Of a DNA stretch of 55,177 nt, positions 12,786-29,052 are shown piece after piece. The position numbers were made by a program, and so were the translations under genes. The notes beneath the pieces are model-generated. The model was not told the DNA's origin, ran no database searches, and saw nothing but the letters and a program-made list of their open reading frames with translations. Source of the DNA: Prochlorococcus sp. AG-432-D11 (lineage in GTDB: Bacteria > Cyanobacteriota > Cyanobacteriia > PCC-6307 > Cyanobiaceae); NCBI GenBank assembly GCA_003212885.1, contig QCOP01000003.1, forward strand, positions 1-55,177, given 5' to 3'. How positions within the stretch are numbered: the first letter of the stretch is position 1; each line of letters begins with the position of its first letter.

Positions 12786-13061
12786 TTTAGGATTTGTGAT
12801 ATATAAACCTACTGTTATTCTCCCATCGCTTATTTTTTTGTCAAAGGGTTGTAGTTTAAATTTTAAGGTAATTGCAATAAAATATGTAGAGGATTTTTAA
12901 AAGTATTTTCTAAAAGTTAATGAGATTTTTGTTGCTAAATATTATGTTTTCGAGAGAATTTGCAACTAGTAGTTAATACCTAATTCGTTTATATTTCTTA
13001 ATCAATCGGCTGCTATTTGAAAAAAATATGCTAAGAATCAACCTTCCTTCGTATAGGTTTA

Positions 13062-13217
13062 ATGATGCCTAACACTAATGATAGTTCTGAATCAATAGTA
13101 GCTATTGATTCTATTGATTCTTATTTTGAATGTATTACATCTTGTTCGCTAAATGATGAGGACATAGAGTGTTTTACGCAATGTGTTTCTATACACTTAA
13201 AAGAGGAATTTGAATAA
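13062..13217 (+). CDS. Small twin-Cx3C protein (51 aa), paralogue of 27890..28042
   Basis: MMPNTNDSSESIVAIDSIDSYFECITSCSLNDEDIECFTQCVSIHLKEEFE; core conserved with second copy in window. Confidence 0.75.
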   Translation: MMPNTNDSSESIVAIDSIDSYFECITSCSLNDEDIECFTQCVSIHLKEEFE

Positions 13218-15865: not shown

Positions 15866-16405
15866 TTGAACCTTGAATTTGTTGCATGCGAAGTTTTCCG
15901 AGAGACGCCTAATGTCACTTTCTTTGCTGCTGATGTTGCTGGTACTAATGGCTCAGATGTTGTAATCCATCAAGGCAGAGCTATTTCCCCTCCAGATATT
16001 GATGGCTCTGAACAATATTATGTTCATCGCAATCAAATTGATCATAATTTAGTGATACAAGGTACTAGAACTTTTCACTTACTTAATCCTGAATGGGATG
16101 AACCTAATCATTTGGTTTTTTTAAATAGAAAAATGGGTGCACTTAAAATCCCACAGAATACTTTTCATCGTTCAATATCAGGTCCTTTAGGCAGCATTGT
16201 TTTAAATCAAGCTATTAGGGGAGAAGAATTTGATGCTAAAAAAGAATTCTCTCCAGTAAATATATTTAGTAGGAATGATCTATTGGCTATCAAGATCATT
16301 AAGCCAATAATTTGGTGCTGGAGTTATGGACGAATACTAAGAAAAAAAGATTCTGGTCTTAGAACAGTTGATATTGAGAAAGATTTGTTGAGATTAGTTG
16401 CATGA
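15866..16405 (+). CDS. Hypothetical protein, possibly cupin-like
   Basis: TTG-start frame; beta-rich with HRNQIDHNLVIQGTRTFHLL and IPQNTFHRSISGPLGSIVLNQ resembling cupin strands. Confidence 0.6.
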   Translation: MNLEFVACEVFRETPNVTFFAADVAGTNGSDVVIHQGRAISPPDIDGSEQYYVHRNQIDHNLVIQGTRTFHLLNPEWDEPNHLVFLNRKMGALKIPQNTFHRSISGPLGSIVLNQAIRGEEFDAKKEFSPVNIFSRNDLLAIKIIKPIIWCWSYGRILRKKDSGLRTVDIEKDLLRLVA

Positions 16406-27669: not shown

Positions 27670-27889
27670 TTATAGATTTGATTTAGTCAATTTTATTGCA
27701 AGATTTGCTTGGCAAAATCCTTTGTCGGAATATATAAACACTTAATTAACTAATTATAAAGTAAATATAAATTTTTTTTGTTTACTTGGGGCTAGTAATT
27801 ATTACTTAGGTACTTTATATCTTTTAACTAAGCATGCAATTTGCTATAAAAATGTGCTAGAAATGTATTCCCTGCAATGTTAATCAAGG

Positions 27890-28042
27890 ATGTCAGTTAA
27901 AAATGAATCTTACGCTTACTTTGAGGAAAATGATTCCTTAGACTCTTACTTTGAATGTATTACCTCTTGCAGCATAGGAAATGATGGAGTTGAGTGTGTT
28001 TCACGTTGTATTGATCAGCATCTTAAAAATGAGATTGAATAA
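27890..28042 (+). CDS. Small twin-Cx3C protein (50 aa), paralogue of 13062..13217
   Basis: MSVKNESYAYFEENDSLDSYFECITSCSIGNDGVECVSRCIDQHLKNEIE; not in ORF track. Confidence 0.78.
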   Translation: MSVKNESYAYFEENDSLDSYFECITSCSIGNDGVECVSRCIDQHLKNEIE

Positions 28043-28599: not shown

Positions 28600-28908
28600 T
28601 TAGCTTTCATTCTTTGAAGCTTTTAGAGCTTGTAAAGCCATATGAATGTGAGCTTCCATAGCTCCTAAAGCTAAAAGAGATTTTGAAGACTTTTTTTCAA
28701 ACAGTTGGTCTTTCTTTTTCAAGTTCTCGATGAGCTCTTTGCTTAAAAATTCCCAATCCTCAAACAATTTTTCAAGCTCTTGCTCTTCTTTAGAAAAGTC
28801 AGCAGAAATTTCCTGTAATTGTGTGTGAATGTCTTTTTGAGCCCCAATCATTAATGAGGAAAGCTTTTTGTGGCTGATTGATTCTGGTACAAGAGGAAAA
28901 TCAGTCAT
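28600..28908 (-). CDS. Hypothetical coiled-coil protein (102 aa)
   Basis: ATG at 28908 MTDFPLVPESISHKKLSSLMIGAQKD...; long charged helices. Confidence 0.65.
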   Translation of the reverse strand: MTDFPLVPESISHKKLSSLMIGAQKDIHTQLQEISADFSKEEQELEKLFEDWEFLSKELIENLKKKDQLFEKKSSKSLLALGAMEAHIHMALQALKASKNES

Positions 28909-29052
28909 GGTTTCTATTTCTTCATACTTTAATAAGATATAGCTTTTTATATCTTTTTCCAATACTCGATTGGTGGGATCACCGCACAAGAAAATATTTA
29001 GCTTGCTTATTAGAGTTCATTTTATTGAAAAAAATATATCTAGAGCTAAGTT

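Follow-up and report, generated by a model that had tools for sequence, protein, structure and literature searches.

Two described protein groups hold a C-x3-C-xn-C-x3-C arrangement on a helical hairpin. Alpha-hairpinins such as EcAMP1 are secreted plant peptides with a helix-loop-helix structure and two disulfides (C1-C4 and C2-C3), and the small Tim proteins (Tim8, Tim9) carry twin CX3C motifs on two antiparallel helices. The small Tims are mitochondrial, hexameric chaperones with a longer spacer, their CX3C motifs being at least 11 residues apart. Two small proteins of cyanobacteria also have two cysteine pairs. NblD (NsiR6), a nitrogen-starvation protein conserved through the phylum, has CPVC (C-x2-C) as its first pair (PMC5126843), and CP12 is a thiol-switched adaptor that is carried by cyanophages as well (PMC7760959, PMC3037559). 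A [DN]-x-YF/Y-x-C-x3-C ... C-x3-C core in a protein of 50-60 aa is also seen in PHROG 665 (T4-GC 363; Syn9 gp134), a hypothetical protein of T4-like cyanophages (Kyanoviridae).

The genes described here belong to Prochlorococcus sp. AG-432-D11 and lie in a window of 55,177 nucleotides (contig QCOP01000003.1), the whole stretch of DNA that was analysed. Their products share the cysteine spacing of alpha-hairpinins and, in AlphaFold2 models, the helix-loop-helix and the antiparallel arrangement common to alpha-hairpinins and small Tims; the spacer, however, is 6-10 residues across the family, shorter than that of the small Tims. An earlier note on this DNA had likened them to small Tims, which is apt as an analogy, whereas sequence similarity is insignificant (PDB profile matches to EcAMP1, TIM8 and TIM9 at E 0.17, 0.55 and 0.66, respectively). 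NblD was rejected as the parent family on spacing, the first pair here being C-x3-C rather than CPVC. CP12 resembles the family in size, in its two cysteine pairs and in having phage relatives, but differs in cysteine layout, and none of 44 aligned members matched the Pfam CP12 model at E <= 0.1. Two further candidates failed: the Csp1 copper-storage model TIGR04401 stayed below its cut-off, with only 1 of 21 members reaching E 0.017, and a lantibiotic-type precursor peptide does not fit a core that is invariant throughout and matches no NCBIfam model.

Searches of Pfam, NCBIfam and PDB sequences with the family returned no significant match, and Rfam recognised only a tRNA in the window and nothing near copy 1. 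The literature search found no paper describing the family. The suspicion in the earlier note that something undescribed is encoded here is borne out to this extent: the host proteins, for which no curated family, solved structure or paper was found, appear undescribed, and of the phage proteins only hypothetical clusters have been recorded. The predicted fold is a variant of the twin-CX3C hairpin; what appears undescribed is the family of genes, which has a promoter of its own and includes a viral branch.

Copies in the window and the family in Cyanobiaceae

The copy 1 frame encodes exactly the 51-aa protein given in the earlier note, with an ambiguous start (ATGATG, position 13062 or 13065), and the paralogue announced there is present as copy 2 (Table 1). 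Their final 36 residues align gap-free, with 21 identities. In all six frames of the window the pattern C-x3-C-x8-C-x3-C occurs three times only, in copy 1, in copy 2 and in one meaningless C/F-rich frame. A search of the home genome, which is about 54% complete, with copy 1 retrieved copy 2 (E 4e-12) together with another paralogue, the third copy, on contig 21 (E 5.5e-7), so that the two copies counted earlier were present and one had been missed. The contig-21 copy represents a third branch that ends ERHLKxxYF/W. Inside the copy 1 frame, at 13089-13111, an inverted repeat with 10-bp arms (GAATCAATAG-TAG-CTATTGATTC) runs into a T-rich stretch, an arrangement that the scan scored as terminator-like.

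Table 1. Family genes and upstream elements in the window.
Feature	Positions	Strand	Description
Copy 1	13062..13217	+	51-aa twin-CX3C protein, long-loop form C-x3-C-x8-C-x3-C-x3-H
Copy 2	27890..28042	+	50-aa paralogue, pattern as copy 1
Copy 1 promoter element	12973..13037	+	diverged first half; TATGCTA 13027-13033; profile match E 3.5e-4
Copy 2 promoter element	27798..27865	+	ACTTAGGTACTTTAT 27804-27818 (exact 15-mer), TTAACTAA 27824-27831, TGTGCTA 27853-27859; profile match E 1.1e-12

When relatives were searched with copy 1, members were found in nearly every Cyanobiaceae genome, usually 1-4 per genome, and complete Prochlorococcus genomes held 2-4 copies; the relatives that bear names are all Prochlorococcus single-cell genomes apart from one Synechococcus. 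Two class-wide draws gave matches in 37 and 30 genomes, of which 36 and 29 were Cyanobiaceae, each draw containing one borderline match outside. The family is found across Cyanobiaceae (Prochlorococcus, Synechococcus) and is essentially absent from other cyanobacteria sampled.

Family members are acidic proteins of about 50 aa, conserved in the C-terminal core and variable in the N-terminal tail. Residues Y21, F22, C24, C28, S29, C37, C41, H45 and L46 are invariant in a 23-sequence alignment, and no residues of the family are better conserved than the cysteines, all four of which are kept in 133 of 134 distinct open frames. The C2-C3 loop comprises 8 residues in 96 of these frames, 6 in 31, and 7, 9 or 10 in six. 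A histidine at C4+4 is retained in 92 of the 96 x8 forms and is absent from the best-conserved, syntenic short-loop branch; it is therefore not needed in all forms. The median dN/dS was 0.21 (906 pairs, pS 0.05-0.6), a guide value rather than a formal test, as the pairs are non-independent, compared with pN/pS of 0.89 and 1.28 when the same genes were read in shifted frames. Judged by sequence comparison, selection on the family is purifying, and the copy 1 frame is a genuine gene that belongs to a multi-copy Cyanobiaceae family. Neither of the refuting conditions named in the earlier note was borne out: homologues that conserve the cysteines occur in dozens of related genomes, and the frame is under protein-level constraint.

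Both window copies belong to the long-loop branch, whose members are dispersed. Copy 2 is preceded by a methyltransferase gene (and, in some genomes, apt as well) and followed by 28600-28989 and murD; these neighbours are common to members in at least eight other genomes, and copy 2 is therefore an old orthologue. The direct neighbours of copy 1 (Band_7 and HI0933-like genes) do not recur beside other members. The 179-aa protein encoded at 15866-16405, which has no Pfam match and is not directly beside copy 1, recurs next to six other family members. At 14 loci the short-loop form WDAVETYFECITTCSLDDGECITQCVEQLR closely follows a co-oriented ABC-F ATPase gene, and it faces a trypsin/PDZ (HtrA-type) protease gene in 5 of the 6 loci listed gene by gene. 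The earlier note had missed this short-loop orthologue fixed beside the ABC-F gene. Synechococcus has further short-loop branches. In one high-light-type Prochlorococcus (locus L144, 1416-3048), MauE-like and DUF411 genes follow a member at a distance of about 1.2 kb, and small frames occupy the interval.

AlphaFold2 predicted two helices both for copy 1 (17-30 and 35-45) and for a short-loop member (37-51 and 57-70), in models with confident cores and low pTM (0.51 and 0.40). The predicted core consists of two antiparallel helices with one CX3C on each, in agreement with the helical hairpin surmised in the earlier note. The predicted turn sets C28 opposite C37 (C2/C3) and C24 opposite C41 (C1/C4), the pairing of alpha-hairpinins and small Tims. 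Foldseek comparison of the model with PDB and viral structures gave nothing usable, which is unsurprising for a hairpin of this size.

The upstream element

A listing of the sequence before each gene brought out a common element upstream of paralogues at unrelated places. It takes the form ACTTAGGTACTTTAT-N5-GTAAnTAA-N18/19-TATGCTA, and can also be written as ATTATTACTTAGGTACTTTAT-N5-GTAAnTAA followed, mostly after 18 or 19 bases, by TATGCTAaaaa; about 140-160 bases separate the start of the 15-mer from the first cysteine codon downstream. Within the element, TTAGGTAC and GTAACTAA, separated by ten bases, make up an imperfect dyad whose downstream half lies about where a -35 box would lie, making the dyad a candidate activator site. 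A Shine-Dalgarno sequence, AAGGAGGT, precedes many members. Scanning for sigma-70 and terminator consensus yielded promoter matches no more often than in shuffles; the promoter that this missed was revealed by comparison.

A sequence-only profile was built from 33 regions, among them that of copy 2 but not that of copy 1. Its two best matches in the home genome were the elements just upstream of the window copies, copy 2 first and copy 1 second; the contig-21 copy had no profile match in this search. Across 13 other genomes, 21 of the 22 matches at E below 1e-3 lay just upstream of a family gene; many of these loci had contributed to the profile, and the weight falls on copy 1 and on how few matches lay anywhere else. 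The remaining match (G026:C1:250403-250464) lies upstream of an apparent decayed family gene whose promoter and Shine-Dalgarno sequence survive. An exact search of 44 genomes with the 15-mer, which was itself derived from the family, gave 13 matches: 12 precede a family gene at the usual distance, and the thirteenth is a mirror image beside one of them. At one locus (G011:C4:60181-60216) the 15-mer forms a perfect mirror pair, six bases apart, with a family gene on one side only. The home genome also contains one exact 14-mer, without the second half, inside an unrelated coding sequence.

To judge from these comparisons, many dispersed paralogues, both window copies included, stand behind the same promoter element. 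The earlier note had correctly recognised the pair of paralogues but missed the family-wide promoter. The shared element could reflect common regulation, or promoter and gene might have been copied as one cassette; common regulation is favoured because the element is conserved between paralogues whose proteins are about 50% identical.

Probable relatives in T4-like cyanophages

PHROG 665 was matched at E <= 0.1 by 18 of 23 host members (best E 1.2e-4), copy 1 alone giving E 0.23 and copy 2 alone E 0.052. The phage proteins differ from those of the host in an MHNxxSxNQLxxW N-terminus, in a loop of mostly 6-7 residues and in lacking the C-terminal HLK; the MHN...NQL...W tail is absent from all host members. 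Direct hhalign comparison of host and phage profiles gave 62-81% (97-98% when transitive). A chain of profiles connected host long-loop with host short-loop forms (98.5%), these with intermediate viral forms (97%), and the intermediates with the main phage set (98.5%). The family thus probably extends into T4-like cyanophages in a shorter-loop form, and common descent of the host and phage forms is likely, the alternative being convergence on a short motif. The earlier note, which had taken the host protein as a candidate for something undescribed, had missed these cyanophage members.

A search with the S-SSM4 member matched 357 cyanophage records, including Syn9 gp134, P-SSM2, P-SSM4 and S-SM2, so that at least 357 records contain the phage gene. 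The gp23 gene of the same phage group was found in 388 Synechococcus-named and 61 Cyanophage-named records, compared with 289 and 45 for the phage family gene; most T4-like viruses of Prochlorococcus and Synechococcus seem to carry a member. Where labels exist, the phage gene is labelled T4-GC 363. In the records of S-SSM4, Bellamy, P-SSM2 and S-PRM1 the member is present and unannotated. The text of a comparison of T4-like cyanophages does not discuss T4-GC 363 (PMC3037559). The phage member of P-TIM68 is without C3. IMG/VR contigs carry DPIDDYFECITECNPIDKQCITSC forms, one of them in T4-like cyanophage surroundings. An 85-kb IMG/VR viral contig encodes DEYFECISECEIHDDDCTDVCVTNHLK, with a host-like C-terminal HLK and no MHN tail, and possibly belongs to a different phage lineage.

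Possible functions

The reading that we favour, at a probability of roughly 0.42, is that the family comprises cytosolic thiol-switch adaptors. No signal peptide is visible by eye, and the protein would reside in the cytosol. When oxidised, two nested disulfides would staple the hairpin and create a binding surface for a partner protein; reduction by the thioredoxin system would loosen the hairpin and release the partner. The acidic tail, in which the copies mainly differ, might set the partner, and one regulator would switch the copies on together. Phages may use their own copy to target this partner in infected cells, a situation with a precedent in CP12, a thiol-switched adaptor that phages carry (PMC7760959, PMC3037559). 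Retention of the cysteines while the N-terminal tail varies argues for such a switch, as do the low dN/dS, the hairpin predicted for long- and short-loop forms, the shared promoter and the phage relatives; the predicted C28/C37 and C24/C41 geometry of alpha-hairpinins and small Tims is consistent with it. The low pTM of the models and the P-TIM68 member count against it. The bacterial cytosol, moreover, is mostly reducing.

The main rival, which is less probable, is that the hairpin binds metal, with the four cysteines, plus the histidine at C4+4 in long-loop forms, holding Zn(II), Cu(I) or an iron-sulfur cluster, and that the protein serves to buffer, sense or deliver the metal. C-x3-C-x3-H would fall on one face of helix 2, with the histidine in nearly all x8 forms, but this residue is missing from the best-conserved branch. 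The member that grazes the Csp1 model is a single, insignificant case. One member adjoins a CobW-type GTPase gene and another lies 1.2 kb from a DUF411 gene, each in one high-light-type Prochlorococcus genome, but these suggestive neighbours are not conserved at other loci. The thiol switch, whose redox state, partner and use by phages we infer, is preferred to a metal site on three grounds: the anatomy of the hairpin, no signal peptide being visible, and the best-conserved branch lacking the histidine.

A thiol-independent adaptor or inhibitor, in which the hairpin mainly binds an enzyme or protease of the host, with no role for the cysteines beyond stabilising it, is more doubtful still. In its strongly acidic tails, its several paralogues and its phage copies the family recalls small regulators such as NblA, and one branch sits beside the ABC-F and HtrA-type protease genes; a plain scaffold, however, would be expected to lose cysteines sometimes, and here they are the most conserved residues. 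That the frames are untranslated, their conservation reflecting a repeated DNA or RNA element, is very improbable, since, although the upstream element is itself repeated in the genome, the contrast between true and shifted frames, the Shine-Dalgarno sequence ahead of many members and the lack of an Rfam match near copy 1 all speak against it.

Tentatively, the family may be a hitherto undescribed class of mini-proteins that respond to redox state or metals and are confined to picocyanobacteria and their T4-like phages. It could constitute a private regulon, with dispersed paralogues under one dedicated transcription factor and a viral counterpart acting on the same host target. The shared promoter makes the function testable: any condition or regulator found to induce one copy should induce the rest as well. 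Because several phage copies are unannotated in the records, they may have been overlooked in expression and proteome studies. The hosts are some of the most abundant photosynthetic organisms, and Prochlorococcus sheds genes yet keeps 2-4 copies, and its viruses one, suggesting a function useful both to the cell and in infection.
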